DNA of 45,366 nt, taken from a virus. Position numbers and translations under genes: made by a program. Position 1 is the stretch's first letter, and each line of letters begins with the position of its first letter. The notes beneath the pieces were generated by a model. The model was not told where the DNA came from, searched no databases, and saw nothing but the letters and a program-made list of their open reading frames with translations. Shown piece after piece: positions 24,027-45,366 of the stretch. The stretch is from the IMG/VR virus record IMGVR_UViG_3300044628_000901, positions 1 to 45,366 of that record; one strand, given 5' to 3'.

Positions 24027-24304
24027 AACTTCACCTCCTTCACCTTGCCGGTGTCTCGGTCAACGACACCCAATGCAATGGCGTTGAACAACACGGTATA
24101 TCCACAGTTGTTGCACTTGACTTGTATCAGGGGGGTGATGGCTGCGCCGGGGCAGTGATTACCTTCGTTAAACTCTCGGACCTCAACGAGGGTTCCAATG
24201 CTCCAAACGGTGGTGGGGATGCAGATCGGGCATTCGCGCTTTCCCTTCCAAACAGTGGAAATGCTGTTGGTGATGAGCTTGCGCTGGGAATCGTTGAGGT
24301 TCAC
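24023..24304 (-). CDS. Small zinc-ribbon-like protein
   Basis: A 93-residue protein from a GTG at 24304 that overlaps the upstream TGA as GTGA; GGAGG lies 7 nt before the GTG, inside the upstream gene's end. RECPICIP (CxxC) and VKCNNCGYTVLF (CxxC), with EGNHCPGAA between them, fit a zinc ribbon. The start is helical (NLNDSQRKLITNSI). It is the only zinc-ribbon member of the run and may be a regulator, but nothing more can be said. Confidence 0.65.
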   Translation of the reverse strand: MNLNDSQRKLITNSISTVWKGKRECPICIPTTVWSIGTLVEVREFNEGNHCPGAAITPLIQVKCNNCGYTVLFNAIALGVVDRDTGKVKEVKL

Positions 24305-24510
24305 GGCTTGGCCTCCGTAGTAAATCCGATGCCAGCTTTGTCCCACAGCAGCAGATCCGCTCGCAATGCGTCGTTCTCTCGCTCTAGTTGGGTGATGCGC
24401 TCTTGAAGCTCACGCTTCTCTTCCGACAGCTTGAGGCATGTCTGCTCCCACGTTGGCGGTGGTGTTCCGCGCATCATCTCAAGCATACCTGTATTGTTGA
24501 GTTGGCTCAC
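24301..24510 (-). CDS. Small coiled-coil array protein, GTG start
   Basis: A 69-residue protein from GTG 24510, overlapping the upstream TGA as GTGA, with GGAGG 7 nt upstream. The core, CLKLSEEKRELQERITQLER followed by ENDALRADLLLWDKAG, is a coiled coil with a motif shared with the gene at 24725 (EQENDAMRADLLLWNE). The C-terminus TEAKP carries the next gene's SD. An upstream ATG at 24531 exists but has no SD and overlaps more. Confidence 0.65.
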   Translation of the reverse strand: MSQLNNTGMLEMMRGTPPPTWEQTCLKLSEEKRELQERITQLERENDALRADLLLWDKAGIGFTTEAKP

Positions 24511-24728
24511 GGCTTGGCCTCCTTGTCCCACGATTGAATGGCTTCTTGAGTACGACGAATTACTGAACCTTCTCCAGAGGCAACTGTTCCGATGTATGAG
24601 GCGCAGTTGCGGAGTTCATTGCCAGCAGTCTCCAGCCGCTTAATACGTTCACGAAGCTCTGATTTGTCCCGATCAAGTTCGCTTATCGTTTTGCAGTAGG
24701 CCACATGGGCATCGACTATATGGTTCAC
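24507..24728 (-). CDS. Small coiled-coil array protein, GTG start
   Basis: A 73-residue protein from GTG 24728 (GTGA overlap, GGAGG 7 nt upstream). It contains SELDRDKSELRERIKRLETA then GNELRNCASYIG, sharing the RIKRLExAG motif with the genes at 24937 and 25113. It ends SWDKEAKP, whose codons include the SD of the next gene. Probably a small oligomerising protein; function unknown. Confidence 0.65.
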   Translation of the reverse strand: MNHIVDAHVAYCKTISELDRDKSELRERIKRLETAGNELRNCASYIGTVASGEGSVIRRTQEAIQSWDKEAKP

Positions 24729-24940
24729 AGCTTGGCCTCCTTCTCGTTCCACAGCAGCAGATCGGCGCGCATGGCGTCGTTCTCCTGCTCTAGTTGGGCG
24801 ATGCGGTCGTTGAGACGATTGAGTTCTTTGACGATGCCGCGTGGTTGAGTATCAAACAGCGTTTTTCCGGTTGGTGTTTGAATCAGGAAACCTTTGGCAG
24901 GGGGAGCGATTCTGATTGGGTCGAGTTTGTAGCGTTTCAC
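24725..24940 (-). CDS. Small coiled-coil array protein, GTG start
   Basis: A 71-residue protein from GTG 24940 (GTGA overlap, GGAGG 7 nt upstream). The N-terminal half is basic and strand-like (KLDPIRIAPPAKGFLIQTPT). The C-terminal half is a coiled coil, LNRLNDRIAQLEQENDAMRA then DLLLWNEKEAKL, nearly repeating the end of the gene at 24301. The shared C-terminal block suggests that recombination moved tails between array members. Confidence 0.65.
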   Translation of the reverse strand: MKRYKLDPIRIAPPAKGFLIQTPTGKTLFDTQPRGIVKELNRLNDRIAQLEQENDAMRADLLLWNEKEAKL

Positions 24941-25116
24941 GGCTTGGCCTCCTTGGCTTTGCGCCATTTTGAAACAGTGTGCTGCACGGCATCCAACCGC
25001 TCATCGCGCAGCCATGCCTCCATCTTATCCCCCGCCTCCTCAAGCCGCTTGATGCGGTCTTTGGCTACTTTCAGATCCCATTGAGTGGAGATCAGTTCAT
25101 GTTCAATATCGGTCAT
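24937..25116 (-). CDS. Small coiled-coil array protein
   Basis: A 59-residue protein from ATG 25116 (ATGA overlap, GGAGG embedded in the upstream end). It is almost wholly helical: MTDIEHELISTQWDLKVAKD, then RIKRLEEAGDKMEAWLRDE. It ends WRKAKEAKP, with the SD of the next gene inside. The RIKRLEEAGD motif is shared with its neighbours and reads on the plus strand as the exact 13-mer CCGCTTGATGCGG. Confidence 0.65.
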   Translation of the reverse strand: MTDIEHELISTQWDLKVAKDRIKRLEEAGDKMEAWLRDERLDAVQHTVSKWRKAKEAKP

Positions 25117-25467
25117 GGCTTGGCCTCCTTGGCTTCTGTCCAAATTCTCACTCTGGCCGCATATTCAAAGGGGCAGATTGCTTCATCCCCAGCTGCCTCC
25201 AGCCGCTTGATGCGGACATTCGAGTCATGCCGCTCTTGAGACACTTTGAGATTTATCTCGCATATTTTATTATTTAATGATTTCAATTGCTGCGAGGACT
25301 TCTCCAACCGCTTGATGCGTTTTAAAAGTAGAGGCACTTCGCGCTGAATCACTTTGCGCTGAGACTCTCCGAGTTTTGCTCCGAGCAGTGTTGCGATGGC
25401 GTTGGCGTCCCATTCGCGTTCAACCTCCAATGCCGACTCCTTCCATTCCTCCAGCCGCTTGATGCGG
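25045..25467. repeat. Dispersed 13-mer CCGCTTGATGCGG inside array genes
   Basis: Exact copies lie at 25045-25057, 25203-25215 and 25455-25467; a 12-base match at 25308-25319; and a diverged copy at 24636-24647. On the coding (minus) strand it encodes the RIKRL part of the coiled-coil motif. It is also an inverted repeat (CCGC...GCGG). It may be a hotspot for recombination between array genes, or just the trace of their duplication. Confidence 0.7.
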
Positions 25468-25616
25468 TCTTGAAGCCGCAGGTTCTCCTCATCAAGCAAT
25501 TGCTGCTGACGGATGATTGTATTGGCTGCGGTGAGTTCGCGTTCCAGCCTCCTGCACAGCATGCCGAGATCGGCTACGTTGTGCGGAGTGCTGTCTGATA
25601 TTGGGGTGTCGCTCAT
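25113..25616 (-). CDS. Large coiled-coil member of the array with three RIKRLE units
   Basis: A 167-residue helical protein from ATG 25616 (ATGA overlap). It begins MSDTPISDSTPHN and LCRRLERELTAAN like the gene at 23799, then contains three units: DRIKRLEEWKESA, LKRIKRLEKSSQQL and VRIKRLEAAGDEA, and ends TEAKEAKP. The last unit plus tail looks like a complete small array gene fused on. This suggests unequal recombination between the repeats. Function unknown; a rod-like oligomer is likely. Confidence 0.7.
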   Translation of the reverse strand: MSDTPISDSTPHNVADLGMLCRRLERELTAANTIIRQQQLLDEENLRLQDRIKRLEEWKESALEVEREWDANAIATLLGAKLGESQRKVIQREVPLLLKRIKRLEKSSQQLKSLNNKICEINLKVSQERHDSNVRIKRLEAAGDEAICPFEYAARVRIWTEAKEAKP

Positions 25617-25822
25617 TTCGCCTCCCTCGCTTTGAGCATCGCGTCGGCTATTTCGTAAGCCATAATCGCGCTCTGGTTTATGTTGTTGTACCATCCCACT
25701 TCATTGATTGCCTTCGCCGCGAAGTAGTCGCGAATGCTCATCCCGATTTGTGGACTCGTATGTCCATCGGCTCCAGTTCTTGCAAACGCCGGTCCTCCGT
25801 CGTTGATTGGTTGGTTGGTCAT
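25613..25822 (-). CDS. Conserved small phage protein (NDGGPAFA...GMSIRDYFA type)
   Basis: A 69-residue protein. INDGGPAFARTG, PQIGMSIRDYFAAKAI and AYEIADAMLKARE form a pattern common in small phage proteins (GG.AFP.....GMTLRDYFAAKA...). Function unknown to me. It overlaps both neighbours by ATGA and ends in EAK with an embedded GGGAGG that serves the MSDTP gene downstream. Confidence 0.75.
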   Translation of the reverse strand: MTNQPINDGGPAFARTGADGHTSPQIGMSIRDYFAAKAINEVGWYNNINQSAIMAYEIADAMLKAREAK

Positions 25823-31761: not shown

Positions 31762-32163
31762 TTACCGTCCGGTGAAAGTAGGGTTTTTACTGTCGAGTTT
31801 GTTTCGAGTCGCAACTTGCAAGGATTCTTTGGCGGTTTGTTTCTCAAGCTCGCGCATGACACGTCGGCCATACGCGCGTGATGATGATTTTCTAAGGGCT
31901 TTTGGCCCACCTTGCCAGAGCCGAGCTAAAGATTCGTCGCTGAGGTGTTGGCCATAGTGCGCGAAATAAGACTCCGCGATGAAGATCGAGACGGCGCGGT
32001 TGGTTACCTGCGCGTGCGCGTAGTGCGTTCCCATGATCCGATTCACGTCGCGGACCATGATCGATTTGATTTGTAGCGCGCCGAGTTCGCCGTGCTTGCC
32101 GCGCGCATGATCGTTTCCACCGGATTCGACCTGAATGAGAGCGGATAAAAGCAATGGATGCAT
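31762..32163 (-). CDS. Endolysin-like lytic transglycosylase / lysozyme-fold protein
   Basis: A 133-residue protein from ATG 32163. LSALIQVESGGNDHARGKHG then ELGALQIKSIMVRDVNRI is the SLT/lysozyme start, with the catalytic Glu at residue 13 in VESGG and the GALQI motif after it. FIAESYFAHYGQHLSDESLA and LWQGGPKAL follow. It would cut the glycan strand of peptidoglycan at the end of infection, or be used in the virion. It has no signal peptide, so it needs the holin-like proteins encoded at 41972-42357. Unusually it sits in the operon of small early-type genes. The longer ORF upstream is rejected as antisense to gene order. Confidence 0.8.
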   Translation of the reverse strand: MHPLLLSALIQVESGGNDHARGKHGELGALQIKSIMVRDVNRIMGTHYAHAQVTNRAVSIFIAESYFAHYGQHLSDESLARLWQGGPKALRKSSSRAYGRRVMRELEKQTAKESLQVATRNKLDSKNPTFTGR

Positions 32164-32237
32164 GATTTGATGCGGTTTTGAGTGGTTTTCGTTGGATTTG
32201 TTGCGCGTGGAACGGATGCGCGCACCCCCGGTTTGAA

Positions 32238-32504
32238 TCACTGGCCTTTCGCCTTCCTGATTACCTCGCGAGCGTGGTCTAGGTCGTCGTCGTCGGCCAT
32301 GGGGTGCGTGAGACGTTCCAGCGCGGAGAGAAGATCGGGGGCGGAGGCGATTAGGCGAGCATCCTCGGGCAATATGTCGCCAGCGATAAACGCCGGATTC
32401 CATTCGCCAGTCGTCGTTACAATGTCCATTCGCAGGCTGTCAGGGTTGCGTGAAATGGCTGTCGTGGGTGTTGCAAGCCAAGGGCCGGGGGTATGGGTTT
32501 TCAT
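32238..32504 (-). CDS. Conserved small phage protein (TPGPW...DARLIASAPDLL type)
   Basis: An 88-residue protein. It starts MKTHTPGPWLATPTTAISRN and has DARLIASAPDLLSALERL, a pattern very common in phage and prophage genomes, function unknown. It ends with TGATTC at the stop, like the genes before the structured intergenic elements. The 74-bp gap to the endolysin gene (32164-32237) holds a GCGCG hairpin and the near-start motif ATCAAATC-ATG. Confidence 0.8.
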   Translation of the reverse strand: MKTHTPGPWLATPTTAISRNPDSLRMDIVTTTGEWNPAFIAGDILPEDARLIASAPDLLSALERLTHPMADDDDLDHAREVIRKAKGQ

Positions 32505-32526
32505 TGGGTTCTCAGGTGCGTAGGGT

Positions 32527-33120
32527 TCAGGCAATCGTCTTAATCCACTCAAGATATTCCCGCGCCTCGGCTTCACCTTGACGGTAACCACCAAGTTCCA
32601 AGCGGTCAGATTCTCTGGATGATTGGCAAAACTGATACCAGCGCTCGCGAGCGTCGCAGTGCGGAATTCCGCAATCACGATGGAGAACATGCGCGAAGGC
32701 ACCGAAAAAGTCGTCTCGGACTTCATCGACATGATCGTCCATTCCGATTGCGCGGAGAAGATCCGCATCCATTCGGTCCAGGCGCATCAGCGGAAGAATG
32801 GATTCGACCGCGAAATCACGCGCGTCCGCCCAGATTTGCTGATATGCGTTGGTTTTAATCCACAAAGAGCCGTCGTCAAAAAGGTGATAAATCGATGCGT
32901 CACCGCCTGATCCTTCACGGAATGACTCGCTGATGTTGTCCGCGAACGGTGGGAGAGTTTCGATCAGGTCTTGCTCCTCCCATGACAGGCTGCGACACAT
33001 AGCGTAGGTATGGCGCACATAGGCGAGCGCGGACTGCGGGAGGTTGTCCGCGTGGAATGATTGCAGGATCGTCTCGCGTGCAATGATGCGTTCGAGGATG
33101 GGAATAAGTTTTGGATTCAT
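32527..33120 (-). CDS. Hypothetical protein
   Basis: A 197-residue protein from ATG 33120, helical and acidic (PKLIPILERIIARETILQSF, AYVRHTYAMCRSLSWEEQDL, RERWYQFCQSSRESDRLELG). Family not recognised. The 80-bp gap upstream (33121-33200) contains a nested hairpin (CCTAC...GTAGG around GCCGCAAGGC) and CAAATCAAATC close to the ATG, a looser version of the start context of the genes further upstream. Confidence 0.6.
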   Translation of the reverse strand: MNPKLIPILERIIARETILQSFHADNLPQSALAYVRHTYAMCRSLSWEEQDLIETLPPFADNISESFREGSGGDASIYHLFDDGSLWIKTNAYQQIWADARDFAVESILPLMRLDRMDADLLRAIGMDDHVDEVRDDFFGAFAHVLHRDCGIPHCDARERWYQFCQSSRESDRLELGGYRQGEAEAREYLEWIKTIA

Positions 33121-33200
33121 GATTCGTGATTTGATTTGAGGAAGGACTTGTGGCCTACCCTTTCGCAGCACGCCTTGCGGCATGATGCGCGTAGGATGGG

Positions 33201-33482
33201 TCAAACCTCAAAGGTAACCAGCCGGTAGCCCTTGCGCGGTTCAATCTTGGCTGTCATTCGCTCCTTTCGCGTCGCGTCGCGCATTGCCTGATTCCAGTCT
33301 ACCTTGTCGCGGAAAGAGCCGTTGCCAATCTTCACCGAGACATTGCGCGGCATTTCATGCGCGAGGAATTGCGCGCGTTCGAGTTGTGACAGCGGGGAGC
33401 GATTGAGAAAGGCCGGGATTGAATCGCCAAAGCCATTCCAGAATTCATCGGATAAATCGCGGAAGATTGCGGTGATTTTCAT
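33201..33482 (-). CDS. Hypothetical protein
   Basis: A 93-residue protein from ATG 33482: KITAIFRDLSDEFWNGFGDS, LSQLERAQFLAHEMPRNVSV and WNQAMRDATRKERMTAKIEP. Mixed helix and strand with a basic C-terminal half. The start lies 19 bp after the upstream stop and has no SD. Family not recognised. Confidence 0.6.
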   Translation of the reverse strand: MKITAIFRDLSDEFWNGFGDSIPAFLNRSPLSQLERAQFLAHEMPRNVSVKIGNGSFRDKVDWNQAMRDATRKERMTAKIEPRKGYRLVTFEV

Positions 33483-33501
33483 TGTATGCGCGGGGTATGG
33501 G

Positions 33502-33828
33502 TTAGAACAACTGAATGACGATTCCGCCTTCGAATTCGACGACTTGCGTGTGTTCGCGGAGCCATTCCAGAGCCTCCGGTTCGCAGTCCGCGTCATTTCC
33601 GCAGACTTCCTTGAATCCGAAGTCATTTGCGGCCTTCAGCGCGGAGGGATATTCGGCCCATTCGCAGCAGATACCGATCGGGTCTAGCTCAAGCTCCACT
33701 CCGCAATCGTCCTCGTAAGATTCAAGGTAATCGAAGAGAGCGAACAGAGCGGCGCGGGTAAATTGACTCTCGCGGCCAGCGGCGCGGAAAGAGTCGACGA
33801 ATTGATAGGACGTGACGGTTTGCTTCAT
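33502..33828 (-). CDS. Conserved phage protein (FDYLESYEDD...ICCEWAEY type)
   Basis: A 108-residue acidic protein. YQFVDSFRAAGRESQFTRAA, LFALFDYLESYEDDCGVELE, LDPIGICCEWAEYPSALKAA and EALEWLREHTQVVEFEGGIV are a conserved pattern in phages (LEEYEE...ELDVIAICC.Y.EY). Function unknown to me. The start follows the structured element at 33829-33902 and has TCCC directly before ATG instead of an SD. Confidence 0.8.
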   Translation of the reverse strand: MKQTVTSYQFVDSFRAAGRESQFTRAALFALFDYLESYEDDCGVELELDPIGICCEWAEYPSALKAANDFGFKEVCGNDADCEPEALEWLREHTQVVEFEGGIVIQLF

Positions 33829-33902
33829 GGGATTTTATGCTTTTGATTCGGGTTTGATTACCCGCACAACCCACGGTTTCCCATGGGCTGGCCGGGGAAT
33901 CA
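33829..33902 (-). ncRNA. Structured intergenic element 1 (three-way junction-like)
   Basis: In mRNA sense the element starts at the stop codon (TTTGATTC), then hairpin A CCCA-[10 nt TGGGAAACCG]-TGGG (33887-33870), hairpin B CGGGT-[6 nt]-ACCCG (33864-33849), then AATCAAA, which can pair with TTTGATT, and TCCC before the ATG. Two sister elements (34245-34312, 34845-34922) have the same order and a 10-base loop with GAAA at the same place but different stems, which supports a real RNA structure. Confidence 0.6.
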
Positions 33903-34244
33903 AATCTTGGTGATTTGATGCAATGCGGATTCAATGTCACGCCGGAGGCCGGAACGAATCGAATCGGCCAGTTTCAACGCGGCGTCCATGATTCGTTCCG
34001 ATTCGTTGCGCGCATCCAAGATAATCTTGTCACGCTCACGCAGGGAATCGGCGCGCATTTCCGCGCAACGGCGCGCGCAGTCTTGGATTGAGGCGGAGGC
34101 CAAGATTCCCGGTTCAATGTCGGATCGAATGTCGCTTTCGATGAATGGGATTTGCTCGCGGAGCCAAGCGCCGCAGTAGCTGTCGGAACCGAGACTATCG
34201 GCGGCGGCGGTTAGGATTTGGATTTCTTCGGACTTGGATTTCAT
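33900..34244 (-). CDS. Conserved small phage protein (LGSDSYCGAWLREQIPFIESDI type)
   Basis: A 114-residue protein. ILTAAADSLGSDSYCGAWLR then EQIPFIESDIRSDIEPG is a pattern I recognise from phages of unknown function. The rest is a long, charged helix (RADSLRERDKIILDARNESE). Its stop codon is part of element 1 and its start follows element 2, with TCCC right before ATG and no SD. Confidence 0.75.
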   Translation of the reverse strand: MKSKSEEIQILTAAADSLGSDSYCGAWLREQIPFIESDIRSDIEPGILASASIQDCARRCAEMRADSLRERDKIILDARNESERIMDAALKLADSIRSGLRRDIESALHQITKI

Positions 34245-34312
34245 GGGATTTGATTCGGCGACTCATTCGCCGCTGCAATCCACTCTTTCGAATGGATTGG
34301 CGCGGGGAATCA
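34245..34312 (-). ncRNA. Structured intergenic element 2 (three-way junction-like)
   Basis: mRNA order: stop TTGATTCCCC, hairpin A CAATCCA-[TTCGAAAGAG]-TGGATTG (34299-34276), 3 nt, hairpin B CGGCGA-[5 nt]-TCGCCG (34272-34256), then AATCAA that can close on TTGATT, then ATCCC-ATG. The 7-bp stem A differs from those of elements 1 and 3 while the 10-nt loop with GAAA is kept, as expected from compensatory change. Confidence 0.65.
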
Positions 34313-34630
34313 ATGGCGAACACGGATTCCGGCGGCGCGCATAGCTTTCCGCCAGTACTTGTCACGCGACGGCGGATTCGATTTGTCAAAGTGAAGGGAT
34401 TCCGTCCGGTTAGAGCAATCGCGGAAGTTTTCCTCAGGATAGGACGAAAGCCAATCCCATCGGGAACCGGCGCAAGGGGACGAGGAAGGGATGGGATGCG
34501 CGCGCATCAATTCGACCAGCTCGCGGAACGTGACAGGCTCCGATTGACAGATAAATCCGGCGTCGTCGGATTCGCCGAATTCGGCGGATTCAGGCGTGAC
34601 GGTTTCAAAGGTGCGGGAGATTAGAATCAT
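34310..34630 (-). CDS. Conserved phage protein (MILISRTFE...TPESAEFGE type)
   Basis: A 106-residue protein from ATG 34630. It begins MILISRTFETVTPESAEFGE and continues SDDAGFICQSEPVTFRELVE, a start I recognise from small phage proteins of unknown function; RDKYWRKAMRAAGIRVRH near the end is also typical. The start lies 7 bp after the upstream stop in the context AACTCCC-ATG. Its stop is inside element 2. Confidence 0.75.
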   Translation of the reverse strand: MILISRTFETVTPESAEFGESDDAGFICQSEPVTFRELVELMRAHPIPSSSPCAGSRWDWLSSYPEENFRDCSNRTESLHFDKSNPPSRDKYWRKAMRAAGIRVRH

Positions 34631-34637
34631 GGGAGTT

Positions 34638-34844
34638 TTACTTTGAGAGATTGATGCGGGGACGGAATTCAAGGCATGGGCCGGAAACGGAAGCGGAAAC
34701 ATAATAGTCTGACAGGTTGAAAGCGGCGATGCGTTCCGAATCGGGGAACGGAAGGATAGCGTGGCATTCGTGGGGTTTTCCTTCGTTTCGAACACGGGGA
34801 GTTCTATCTATACGGAGGCAGAATTCGGAGAATGTTTCTTTCAT
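34638..34844 (-). CDS. Small conserved-looking hypothetical protein
   Basis: A 68-residue protein: MKETFSEFCLRIDRTPRVRN, then LPFPDSERIAAFNLSDYYVS and CLEFRPRINL, strand-rich. No family is recognised with confidence. The start follows element 3 with AATCAAATCCC-ATG and no SD. Confidence 0.6.
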   Translation of the reverse strand: MKETFSEFCLRIDRTPRVRNEGKPHECHAILPFPDSERIAAFNLSDYYVSASVSGPCLEFRPRINLSK

Positions 34845-34922
34845 GGGATTTGATTGGCTTTGGATTCGGCGTGATTGCCGATTGCAGGCTTCCGTTTCCG
34901 AAAGCCTGTCTATCGAGAATCA
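34845..34922 (-). ncRNA. Structured intergenic element 3 (three-way junction-like)
   Basis: mRNA order: stop TTTGATTCTC, hairpin A CAGGCTT-[TCGGAAACGG]-AAGCCTG (34908-34885), 4 nt, hairpin B CGGC-[6 nt]-GCCG (34880-34867), an 11-nt insert, AATCAAA that pairs with TTTGATT, then TCCC-ATG. The layout and loop match elements 1 and 2. The insert before the closing strand is unique to this copy. Confidence 0.6.
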
Positions 34923-35291
34923 AACCAATTCGGCGTACGAATAGGATTTCAAATCGTTGCGGATTGAATCGGCGACGCCGGATTCGAAAGCTTCCCATAG
35001 TTCGTTGGCGTCATCGCTTTCGTTGAATTCATGGGCGATGAATTCGAATGGGGAATACTCACGGGAATTGATTTCAGCAGCGTAACAAATGCATTCATGG
35101 TATTCTGCGATATTTTCCGGCGTGACGGTTTTGCCAAGTCCAATCCAATCGATCGATCGATCGATGGCGTCGCCGATTGACGGGACATTATGGCAAGCGA
35201 TGCCATGGCCATGATTCCAACCTAGGCGATAGGCACGCTCTAAGGTTGAATCGGAGGCGAATGCGGCGGGGATAGTTTCGGGATAGTTCAT
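34920..35291 (-). CDS. Conserved phage protein (AYRLGWNHGHGIACHNVP type)
   Basis: A 123-residue acidic protein. ERAYRLGWNHGHGIACHNVP is a strong motif shared by small phage proteins of unknown function, and SPFEFIAHEFNESDDANELW with ESGVADSIRNDL fits the same family. It starts 9 bp after the 35-residue membrane gene in the context ACAAATCCC-ATG. A short ATCG repeat at 35148-35165 lies inside the gene. Confidence 0.75.
   Translation of the reverse strand: MNYPETIPAAFASDSTLERAYRLGWNHGHGIACHNVPSIGDAIDRSIDWIGLGKTVTPENIAEYHECICYAAEINSREYSPFEFIAHEFNESDDANELWEAFESGVADSIRNDLKSYSYAELV
35148..35165. repeat. Tetranucleotide repeat (ATCG)4 plus AT
   Basis: Four and a half copies of ATCG inside the conserved gene at 34920-35291 (coding for the IDRSID part). 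It creates overlapping GATC and TCGA sites. Probably codon-driven chance or a small slippage product. Confidence 0.6.
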
Positions 35292-35300
35292 GGGATTTGT

Positions 35301-35408
35301 TTAATGGTTGGGAGTGAAGTTGAGAGACGTTTCAAGGTACGCTTGGAATAGGACGAAAGCGATGATTGCCAAGGCAATGGCGATGCGTTTCAGGGTTGAG
35401 CGTTTCAT
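35301..35408 (-). CDS. Very small membrane protein (35 residues), first gene of its operon
   Basis: The frame from ATG 35408 to TAA 35301 encodes MKRSTLKRIAIALAIIAFVL followed by FQAYLETSLNFTPNH: a basic start, one hydrophobic helix of about 18 residues and a polar tail. A good promoter ends 8 bp before its ATG, so the mRNA would be nearly leaderless. It could be a signal-anchor protein acting in the inner membrane; function unknown. Confidence 0.65.
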   Translation of the reverse strand: MKRSTLKRIAIALAIIAFVLFQAYLETSLNFTPNH

Positions 35409-35416
35409 GTTGGGAC

Positions 35417-35445
35417 AGACTAGAGTGGACGTGGCGGGGAGTCAA
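35417..35445 (-). promoter_or_regulatory. Promoter of the 30.7-35.4 kb operon, near-leaderless
   Basis: On the minus strand TTGACT (35445-35440), a 17-base spacer, then TAGTCT (35422-35417). Start of transcription is expected near 35410, two bases before ATG 35408. The rest of the 170-bp divergent gap (35446-35578) is purine-rich on the plus strand with repeated AAAGTTT and GAAAA motifs and no strong plus-strand promoter. Confidence 0.65.
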
Positions 35446-35578
35446 AGAAAAAGTTTGAAAAAGTTTAGAAAGGGGGAAAAGGCCTGATTTTACAGGGGAA
35501 AACGAGGGAAAACGAAAAGCGAAAAGGCGACGAAGGCGACGTTGAACGATTCACGACGACAGGCTAAGGTGACGGGAA

Positions 35579-36028
35579 ATGAGGATTGGAAAACAAGCTT
35601 GGGAAAAGGCGAAGGCGCTTTACTTTGCGGGGCAAAGTTGGGAGACAATTGCAAACGATTTGCAACTGAACAAGGCGACGTTGACGAACAAGGCCAGTAT
35701 TGAAGGGATTACGAAAGTGAAGGCTCAAATGCAAACGGTTTGCATTGAAAAGAAAACCCAATCGTTGGAAGCGTTGTCCGCAATCGTCCGCAGCAAACTA
35801 GCTGCCGATGCAGCCAGCACGTTGGAACGCATAGACAGCTATTCGTTGGACGGGATAAAGGATGAAAGCGTGCGCGAGACTATTCTTGGTTCCGTCGCCA
35901 AGCGTAGCGCGCTGGTTTTCGGATGGAGTGAACAAGGCGAAAGCGCCAGCGTGAGCATCAACTTGCTCGGTTCAATGCCTGATCGAATCGCTGAGATTCA
36001 AGTCACGGGAGAATCCGATTCGAAGTAA
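35579..36028 (+). CDS. Small terminase subunit-like HTH protein, putative
   Basis: A 149-residue protein. The N-terminus EKAKALYFAGQSWETIANDL then QLNKATLTNKASIEGITK is a helix-turn-helix of the kind found in small terminase subunits. The middle is helical (LEALSAIVRSKLAADAASTL), and the C-terminus (VSINLLGSMPDRIAEIQVTG) is strand-like, as in oligomerising terminase small subunits. AAGGTGA upstream is a good SD. It lies upstream of the capsid gene but far from terL, which is unusual. A transcription regulator is the alternative. Confidence 0.6.
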   Translation: MRIGKQAWEKAKALYFAGQSWETIANDLQLNKATLTNKASIEGITKVKAQMQTVCIEKKTQSLEALSAIVRSKLAADAASTLERIDSYSLDGIKDESVRETILGSVAKRSALVFGWSEQGESASVSINLLGSMPDRIAEIQVTGESDSK

Positions 36029-44029: not shown

Positions 44030-44362
44030 TTAATACTGTTTTTCAAAAGTTGCTTCAGGTTCTTTCGCTGTTTCAATTACGGCCAATTTGCGGAGGTTTT
44101 CAAGACAATGCGCGTAGCCAGCGGTTACACCGGCAGCGAAAATAATATCCGATTCCTTGCTACCATGAGACGGCATCGGCACCGGGATTGATTCCGACAC
44201 GATGCGAATGGCCATGCGAAGGATCGGATTTCGCATAATCGCAGCAAGTTCTGCCTGCTGGCCCTCGTTCTGCCAATCGCTCAGGTTTACCTCAGGCAGA
44301 TTCAGTAGGTCCTGCTTCGCCTGTTTGCTCGGGTTCTTCGTCAAGCCTCTTAGCCAGTTCAT
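44030..44362 (-). CDS. Small conserved-looking hypothetical protein
   Basis: A 110-residue protein: MNWLRGLTKNPSKQAKQDLL, LPEVNLSDWQNEGQQAELAA, IMRNPILRMAIRIVSESIPV and AAGVTAGYAHCLENLRKLAV. Helical and uncharged in the second half. It overlaps the GH130-like gene's end by 71 bp in another frame and precedes the scaffold-like gene by 10 bp. It may be a minor head protein, only by position. Confidence 0.6.
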   Translation of the reverse strand: MNWLRGLTKNPSKQAKQDLLNLPEVNLSDWQNEGQQAELAAIMRNPILRMAIRIVSESIPVPMPSHGSKESDIIFAAGVTAGYAHCLENLRKLAVIETAKEPEATFEKQY

Positions 44363-45366
44363 TGTACTTTGATTTCTTGTTTCGTTTCAGTTTATGCCGC
44401 TCGGGAATCGGATCGAGAACGTCAGTCAGCTTTGGAGGGTTCTCCTTGTTGACGACATCGCGCTTCGGTCGAATCACCTTTGTCACCTCAAGCAAGTCGG
44501 CCAGTGGCAGCTTCATGTAGCCGCAATCCACATCGTTGATGCCGTATGAGATGACGAAATTGTTCTTCGCGCTGTCGAAGAAAGCGCCGCACGGGAACAC
44601 GACCGCAGGCAGTCCAGGCCACCAGTCCTGCTGATTGGTGCCGGTAAGAAGCGGCAGTGTCGTCATGCGAGCAATGCGGAATGGAGCCTTAGCTTCGAAA
44701 GCGTACGCACCCATGTAATAGCGGCGCTTGCCGTTGATCCAGGGCAGCGAGCTGTGGAAGAAGGTCCAGTACAAGCCGTCCGCGTAAATGGGATTCGTTC
44801 CACCGCGAACCTCTCCGAATTTCCAGAGCGGATTGAACTCCTCGGTGACATATTCGGCATCCTTCTCTAGCCGCCCATTAAGGCGCACAACGACATGGGG
44901 ATTGGCCGAATACACCATGTGTGGCGCATTATCGTGGACGAAGTAGAGCCAGTTCTTCTCATGGCCATCGTTGATCATGGCCTGCGCGTAGTTGTTGCCG
45001 TAGATCGGATCGAACCGACCCACGTTCAGGAACTGCTTATCGAGCAGGAACATCGCCTGATGCGCGTAGCTCTTGAACGGAACGAACGTGCAGCAGCTCA
45101 CACCGTACTTGTCGCCGAACTTCACGACACGCGGATCTTCGAACTGCTCGTTCGGGTAGTTCGAGGTGAGCTGGAGGATCGACTTTTTTGTGGCTCGTAA
45201 ATCTTTACTCAGCTCGAAGGCAACGATGTCGTTTTTCTCGGTGTAAACGTCCTCATCCTTCTCGCGCTTGTTGCGGCAGCGACGTGCGAAAAGCATGATT
45301 CGTCCATCTGCCTCCTGCATGATGGCTGGATTGAAGTAGTACGTCCCGGTTTCAGCCGGAAGAACG
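44292..45366 (-). CDS. GH130-like beta-propeller protein, main part (runs off the window and joins 1..544)
   Basis: This is the 3' part of the gene that starts at 544 and crosses the circle junction. Propeller-like marks are SNYPNEQFEDPRVVKFGDKY, GVSCCTFVPFKSYAHQAMFL, EVRGGTNPIYADGLYWTFFH, MGAYAFEAKAPFRIARMTTL and AVVFPCGAFFDSAKNNFVIS with YGINDVDCGYMKLPLADLLE at the end. This order fits GH130-type five-bladed propellers (mannoside phosphorylases and related sugar enzymes). The last 60 residues are basic then acidic and disordered. Catalysis is not proven; it may bind or trim the sugar made by the GT25 pair. The frame stays open to 45366. Confidence 0.7.
   Translation of the reverse strand, partial: VLPAETGTYYFNPAIMQEADGRIMLFARRCRNKREKDEDVYTEKNDIVAFELSKDLRATKKSILQLTSNYPNEQFEDPRVVKFGDKYGVSCCTFVPFKSYAHQAMFLLDKQFLNVGRFDPIYGNNYAQAMINDGHEKNWLYFVHDNAPHMVYSANPHVVVRLNGRLEKDAEYVTEEFNPLWKFGEVRGGTNPIYADGLYWTFFHSSLPWINGKRRYYMGAYAFEAKAPFRIARMTTLPLLTGTNQQDWWPGLPAVVFPCGAFFDSAKNNFVISYGINDVDCGYMKLPLADLLEVTKVIRPKRDVVNKENPPKLTDVLDPIPERHKLKRNKKSKYNELAKRLDEEPEQTGEAGPTESA
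45107..45366. repeat. Right copy of the 260-bp terminal overlap
   Basis: It repeats 1-260 with three differences (45234, 45249, 45255). All three fall at third codon positions of the GH130-like gene and are silent (AAG/AAA, GAT/GAC, GAC/GAT). This points to two closely related genomes in the sample, or population variation, rather than sequencing error. Confidence 0.9.

Follow-up and report, generated by a model that had tools for sequence, protein, structure and literature searches.

What are the structured gaps between the small genes of this phage, and do they act on the step from one gene to the next? The window, by which we mean the whole 45,366-bp stretch that was analysed, is a viral record with phage terminase, primase/helicase and tail-fibre genes. 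Its terminase and primase have remote relatives only, and no tRNAs were found in the window. The genes around the three gaps are small, all lie on the minus strand in a co-directional cluster, and few have known families. No Pfam family was found for the product of the 114-aa gene that lies among them. No Shine-Dalgarno-like motif was seen by eye 5' of the window genes, which suggests that the host does not use such motifs. Elsewhere in the window, a row of small ORFs at 24301-25694 (minus strand) has repeated segments, with a 23-nt motif near the ends and a 36-nt motif inside, and looks like a tandem gene duplication. Two glycosyltransferase family 25-related genes and one GH130-like gene were seen at 1761-2342, 541-1215 and 44292-45320 (all minus strand); the match of 541-1215 to glycosyltransferase family 25 falls below the curated cut-off.

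An earlier note had described one plan for the gaps at 33829-33899, 34245-34309 and 34845-34919, and this plan is present there on the minus strand: (T)TTGATTC with the stop codon, hairpin A with GAAA, hairpin B, AATCAA and ATCCC-ATG. Among 200 dinucleotide shuffles of each gap, none folds as well (z about -3.8 to -5.7). The main fold in all three gaps is a hairpin of about 50 nt on the mRNA strand whose first bases are the TGA stop codon. The idea that the stop codon lies inside a stem was thus correct, as TGA is the first base-paired triplet of the long hairpin. The hairpin consists of a lower arm a of 11 nt that is interrupted by a pyrimidine mismatch (TGATT-C-CCCG(C), and TGATT-C-TCGAT in copy 3), a 2x2 or 3x2 internal loop, a 10-bp GNRA stem (stem A), and arm a' ((G)CGGG-T-AATCA or a variant). 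It is followed 3' by strand b (ACCCG, TCGCC or CGCCG), an A-rich leader and ATCCC-ATG.

Other parts of the earlier description had to be redrawn. Hairpin A was given a 10-nt loop with GAAA at positions 4-7; the GAAA is there, but three more base pairs, one of them a conserved U.G, close it into a tetraloop, and stem A has 10 bp with these loop-side pairs counted. The proposed three-way junction is the minimum free energy (MFE) fold of gap 2 if the gap is cut at the stop codon (-28.5 kcal/mol), while with upstream sequence the MFE fold of this gap is the long hairpin. As the main fold of gaps 1 and 3 the junction was rejected, being non-MFE and weaker by about 1-9 kcal/mol; there TTGATT and CCCG/TCGAT pair with CGGG/ATCGG...AATCA after stem A to give one long hairpin. 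Hairpin B is not a junction arm but is retained as an alternative pairing of the 3' arm a', backed by the co-variation of b and a'. The three copies do belong to a family of related structured RNAs, but the count missed a fourth related element at 33203-33151. The features are as follows.

33900..34244, minus strand: the 114-aa gene, function unassigned, between elements 2 and 1; used as the query for relatives.
33855..33902, minus strand: element 1, a long hairpin from the TGA (33902-33900) of the 114-aa gene, from covariance model R1 and folding; in the fold, arm a leads through a 2x2 internal loop into stem A (33890-33867), which a GAAA tetraloop closes, and arm a' comes last.
33849..33854, minus strand: strand b of element 1, AACCCG (hairpin B of the earlier note), an alternative partner of a', from the fold with arm a blocked and from co-variation in the family.
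33829..33848, minus strand: leader of element 1, AATCAAAAGCATAAAATCCC, before the ATG at 33828, from the sequence.
34263..34312, minus strand: element 2, a hairpin from the TGA (34312-34310) of a 106-aa gene, stem A at 34299-34276 with GAAA, from model R1.
34256..34262, minus strand: strand b of element 2, GTCGCCG; with arm a blocked, it forms GGCGA/TCGCC with a'.
34245..34255, minus strand: leader of element 2, AATCAAATCCC, before the ATG at 34244, from the sequence.
34872..34922, minus strand: element 3, a hairpin from the TGA (34922-34920) of a 123-aa gene, stem A at 34908-34885 with GAAA, from model R1.
34867..34871, minus strand: strand b of element 3, CGCCG; with arm a blocked, it forms CGGC/GCCG with a'.
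34845..34866, minus strand: leader of element 3, AATCCAAAGCCAATCAAATCCC, before the ATG at 34844, from the sequence.
33151..33203, minus strand: element 4, a class D hairpin, TGACCCATCC..GCAA..GGGTAGGCCA, from the TGA at 33203-33201 and before the ATG at 33120, from sequence and fold.

Model R1 scored element 1 at 60.0 bits (E 1.8e-14) on the coding strand and 21.8 bits on the opposite strand, element 2 at 63.8 bits (E 1.5e-15) and element 3, which is of sequence class 2 with a 3x2 internal loop, at 47.6 bits (E 6.6e-11). On the coding strand the window copies scored 60-64 bits, with copy 3 lower at 47.6, against 14-22 on the opposite strand, and the two best copies (60-64 against 20-22 bits) show a preference for the coding strand. 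Element 1 has a predicted fold of -31.9 kcal/mol, CGGGU/ACCCG forms when its arm a is blocked in folding, and its leader is A-rich and G-poor with no Shine-Dalgarno-like motif. Element 4 has a different lower arm from elements 1-3. Model R1 did not detect it in the window, and its fold, judged from the window sequence alone, is only modestly better than that of shuffles (z -2.0; 8 of 200 shuffles fold as well). It was included because class D recurs in the viral collection and the hairpin sits at a stop codon.

How far does this RNA extend beyond the window? Relatives of the 114-aa protein were found at 51 viral loci; nearly all have the hairpin at the end of the gene, and many also have one before it. 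Lower-arm patterns scanned against viral_contigs matched 72 stretches for class A and 28 for class C. The class-2 pattern matched 46 stretches, part of which are plain palindromes matched on both strands, and the class-D pattern matched more than 119, outnumbering the class that the earlier note saw. A structural descriptor that left the lower-arm sequence and the stop codon free and allowed any 4-nt loop gave 129 candidates, and in 100 of these the loop was GAAA, GCAA, GTAA or GCGA. The final set holds 121 non-redundant elements from the window and uncultivated phage contigs. All copies have a GNRA loop, and in 106 of 121, across all sequence classes, the third pair from the loop is U.G. Model R1 found elements in all 20 phage records picked from the match list, although one (86.9 kb) was at chance level (22.8 bits); a typical record has 2-5 elements.

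In bacterial chromosomes, the outer-arm pattern matched 49 times in genome_contigs, but no match exceeded 32 bits when scored by the model. Whole genomes of two phyla gave no match (0 of 388 and 0 of 395) in a weak search that scored few candidates per genome, and no elements were found in named phages and plasmids. As far as these tools show, the elements form a defined RNA family confined, by these searches, to a group of uncultivated phages. The family is real and widespread, and it is apparently previously undescribed. In Rfam 15 there is no match to the window at the gathering score, in agreement with the earlier note, and at E<=5 there are two unrelated weak matches.

Several other hairpins were seen in the collection. 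A further stop-anchored class, E (TTGAAGGTGCGCGT...GTGTCTTCAAT), shares the 10-bp GNRA stem and the U.G pair and is found in L108, L247, L264 and L284. A further hairpin type follows TGA, with GGTGAACGGTTCACC as an alternative hairpin, and another, some 18 nt past a TAA, is part of a longer helix (CCAGGA/TCCTGG) and has the alternative GTAAA/TTTAC. These two types are located in L046 (+3334, +6044), L048, L072, L116, L223, L232, L266 and L284.

Covariation was measured in an alignment (A2) of 57 ungapped class-A sequences and is very strong, as judged from the sequences. Paired bases fill 99.0% of the cells, compared to 80.7% after shuffling, and sliding the structure along the alignment lowers the figure to 26-52%. 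Thirteen of the 19 pairs have changed on both sides, and cells with double changes number 197 against 58 +/- 7 in shuffles. The compensatory change that the earlier note saw in the three A stems is therefore far above shuffles in the family alignment. That note had staked its claim on finding more covarying copies in related phages; both copies and covariation were found, and the claim survived. Some positions depart from Watson-Crick pairing in a constant way, and these are just as informative. Pair 12/39 is always G.G or G.A, pair 13/38 is mismatched except in two sequences, the lower helix is broken by one mismatch (usually C.C or C.T) at either of two positions, and in 52 of 57 the third pair from the loop is U.G.

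The hairpins are set on the stop codon in a narrow register. In a set of 101 elements, 97 had an in-frame TGA; it coincided with the 5' base of the hairpin in 61 and lay one nt further in in 24. An ORF that starts with ATG began 17-42 nt 3' of the hairpin in all 101. In classes A, 2 and C, the stop of the upstream ORF was found in 97 of 99 (95 TGA, 2 TAA). The two TAA cases, L005 and L225, have TTA instead of TCA as the partner, a compensatory change within the stop codon itself. Since part of the loci were collected by patterns containing TGA, the stop-codon figure is somewhat biased for those loci, but the loci derived from relatives of the 114-aa protein show the placement without this bias. 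The distance from the stop to stem A is 10 nt in most class-A elements and 9 nt in a variant with a short arm; it is 11 nt in classes 2 and C and varies more in class D (11 or 15-16 nt). A ribosome with a stop codon in its A site shields about 10 nt more. From this spacing, arm a would lie under the terminating ribosome and stem A at its leading edge.

What would a' do while arm a is covered? In most copies strand b, 3' of the hairpin, is able to replace arm a as the partner of a'. When b was swapped between elements, the a'+b fold weakened from -8.34 to -6.67 +/- 0.23 kcal/mol, and none of 2000 permutations reached the observed value, with relatedness uncorrected. The sharpest test is the a' base that is mismatched in a:a', because C or U there is neutral for the main hairpin. 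This base is C with G in b in 14 distinct cases and U with A in 7 or with G in 4, and C with A was never seen (Fisher P = 0.0007; 4 more cases have T in b; relatedness uncorrected). The mutually exclusive pairings a:a' and a':b that define a two-state switch are thus what the b-swap and Fisher tests find, again with relatedness uncorrected. A second kind of b (GATTCCCG) copies arm a and pairs with a' over about 8 bp, part of the class D members have CTATCC, a copy of their own arm a, and two further classes have GGTGAA/TTCACC and GTAAA/TTTAC. Classes C and E are without a clear b. In folds with the ribosome-covered part blocked, at least 4 bp of a':b formed in 97% of real sequences, 87% with the leader swapped and 78% with the leader shuffled. 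This pair count discriminates poorly, so the case for a switch rests on the b-swap and mismatched-base tests. Judged from these comparisons, the alternative pairing a':b is likely to be real.

The hairpins stand beside many different genes. Clustering of the flanking proteins gave 62 combinations of upstream and downstream family among the 121 elements. Family 0, that of the 114-aa gene, always has a class-A hairpin and is then followed by six different downstream families; family 3 has mostly class 2 or C, and families 10 and 14 have class D. One class-D copy lies behind a family that otherwise has class A, which indicates that hairpin replacement happens. The same A-stem sequence types also occur behind unrelated genes. 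It appears from these patterns that the hairpins largely move with the upstream gene and that stems are also swapped between sites. Selection against identical A stems within a genome was considered and dropped (0 of 55 pairs identical, 1.6 expected, not significant).

Among the functions that the earlier note suggested, the analogy with ribosome termination structures (RTSs), which have been studied by experiment, speaks most for control of re-initiation (PMC7518266). Structure after stop codons was seen to lower re-initiation in a synthetic operon of E. coli (RTS, PMC7518266; review PMC12548453). The RTS signal is strongest where the mRNA stretch covered by the terminating ribosome ends, and in bacterial operons RTSs are depleted in the interior and enriched at the ends (Chemla et al. 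2020, PMC7518266). The elements resemble RTSs in being stable mRNA structures directly 3' of the stop, at the edge of the terminating ribosome's footprint, and in the proposed insulation against re-initiation. All 117 of 117 elements pass the RTS energy threshold (40-nt window <= -6 kcal/mol at or just after the stop), the weakest at -16.4. Against the RTS condition of being more stable than randomised sequence, the three window gaps have z -3.8 to -5.7, although from dinucleotide shuffles and not the randomisation of that paper. By this analogy, the elements may work like RTSs, and they fit the computable part of the RTS definition. They also differ from RTSs, which are defined by folding energy only, without conserved sequence or shape. 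The elements here are a defined family, with the stop codon in a helix, a fixed 10-bp GNRA stem, a conserved U.G and mismatches, and strand b; they occur in several copies per phage and lie inside a gene cluster, not at operon ends.

Because the elements pass the RTS threshold, are built on the stop codon and resemble structures that affect re-initiation, the best-supported reading, which we hold tentatively and at somewhat less than even confidence, is that they are translational insulators of the RTS type between co-directional small genes of tailed phages without Shine-Dalgarno motifs. A ribosome terminating at the TGA would cover about the next 10 nt, that is, arm a, and would meet the stable stem A at its leading edge. 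It would then be released there instead of scanning on and re-initiating, and the next gene would be started independently on its unstructured A-rich leader. With arm a occupied at termination, a' would pair with b, so that the barrier would remain folded whichever pairing forms. With no Shine-Dalgarno motif seen by eye, and with 45% A and 4% G in the leaders, the start regions should rely on lack of structure. Since the hairpin largely travels with the upstream gene, genes could be swapped without new read-through coupling. Several points count against insulation: RTSs are depleted within operons, yet these elements lie inside a gene cluster; classes C and E have no clear b; and stop-anchored hairpins are found at only about half of the neighbouring junctions in the gene cluster of the window.

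The same strands could couple the genes instead of insulating them. It is doubtful, but conceivable, that the footprint on arm a makes a' swap to b and so sets the translation of the next gene, as a module reused behind many unrelated genes. The specific form of this, a termination-sensing switch whose output would be positive or timed, in which a ribosome on the TGA frees a' and a':b turns the downstream gene on or off, we consider unlikely. The exclusive pairings are laid out as in an attenuator, arm a is the stretch expected under the terminating ribosome, the co-variation of b and a' involves a base that plays no part in a:a', and sequence classes have their own b. However, the start codon and leader are visibly hidden in neither predicted state, leader accessibility is little changed by the hairpin (0.696 vs 0.673), and the lack of a clear b in classes C and E bears on this reading too. 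Attenuators of the trp-leader and erm type (also in PMC12548453) likewise have competing strands, one of which can be covered by a ribosome at a defined codon. Unlike them, the elements here have no terminator or hidden ribosome-binding site in either state and no stalling peptide, and they are repeated between many unrelated genes.

A stable hairpin with a GNRA cap right behind a gene is a classic form of protective or processing structure. The hairpins here are stable, GNRA-capped and directly 3' of genes, and their conserved internal loops (G.R and Y.Y mismatches) could position a nuclease. A role in RNA stability or processing, as a barrier to 3'-end exonucleases or as an endonuclease site that splits the polycistronic mRNA, is nevertheless distinctly unlikely, since it leaves the exact stop-codon register, the compensatory change in the stop codon and strand b unexplained.

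A plain insulator needs no GNRA loop, conserved U.G pair or conserved internal loop, which also counts against insulation; these features suggest a binding partner. They could mark an operator bound by an RNA-binding protein of the phage or the host, or a boxB-like or put-like antitermination signal: the loop is GNRA in all copies, the U.G is kept in all classes, and the loop stands at a fixed 10-bp spacing from the conserved internal loop. However, the Pfam and PHROG scans that were made gave no candidate protein, and the stop-codon register is not explained, so we regard this reading as improbable.

T4-type PeSLs are phage intergenic stem-loops tied to modular shuffling of small genes, and they carry early promoters. 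The elements here are alike in being intergenic phage stem-loops between small genes shuffled as modules. No promoter is predicted at them, which may set them apart from PeSLs; no sigma-70-like promoter was found in 32000-36000, where the promoters of the host may differ from the sigma-70 model. Integron attC sites, including those of phage CALINs (PMC9892861), are also imperfect hairpins directly 3' of each arrayed ORF, with structure kept while sequence varies and with neighbours reshuffled. A DNA-level recombination site that makes gene and hairpin a mobile cassette of the attC or PeSL kind would suit the 62 family combinations, the hairpin class that tracks the upstream gene while neighbours vary, and the A-stem types shared behind unrelated genes, but it is very improbable: the attC boxes RYYYAAC...GTTRRRY are absent in 121 of 121 elements, which rejects attC identity, no integrase was found among the window proteins scanned against Pfam (part of the ORFs), the GNRA loops, G.U pairs and b covariation indicate RNA, and ordinary homologous recombination at the repeated TGATTCCCCGCG would yield the same shuffling.

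Two other identities were rejected. The gaps have no T run or terminator-like site on the gene strand, and the leaders are A- and C-rich, so the elements are not intrinsic (Rho-independent) terminators. A SECIS or programmed read-through signal would have no common read-through product, because an in-frame TAA closes the frame in gap 1, and in gap 2 the frame meets a TGA ahead of the next gene. Related phages, among them L016, L028 and L135, do have intrinsic terminators whose loop is of the GAAA type and which end in a T run (e.g. AATCCGCAGATCCGAAAGGGTTTGCGGATTTTTT); these are separate from the hairpins set on stop codons.

The independent translation of neighbouring genes on one mRNA still awaits an agreed explanation. 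The RTS proposal of 2020 was built on averaged folding energies and one synthetic operon, and native examples were called for by its authors (PMC7518266). The family described here provides many natural variants of one structure with their own compensatory mutations, and thus the RTS idea becomes directly testable. If the exchange between a:a' and a':b matters, the element would be an RNA that reads out termination itself. The hairpin may also serve as a compact natural part for gene separation in synthetic operons.
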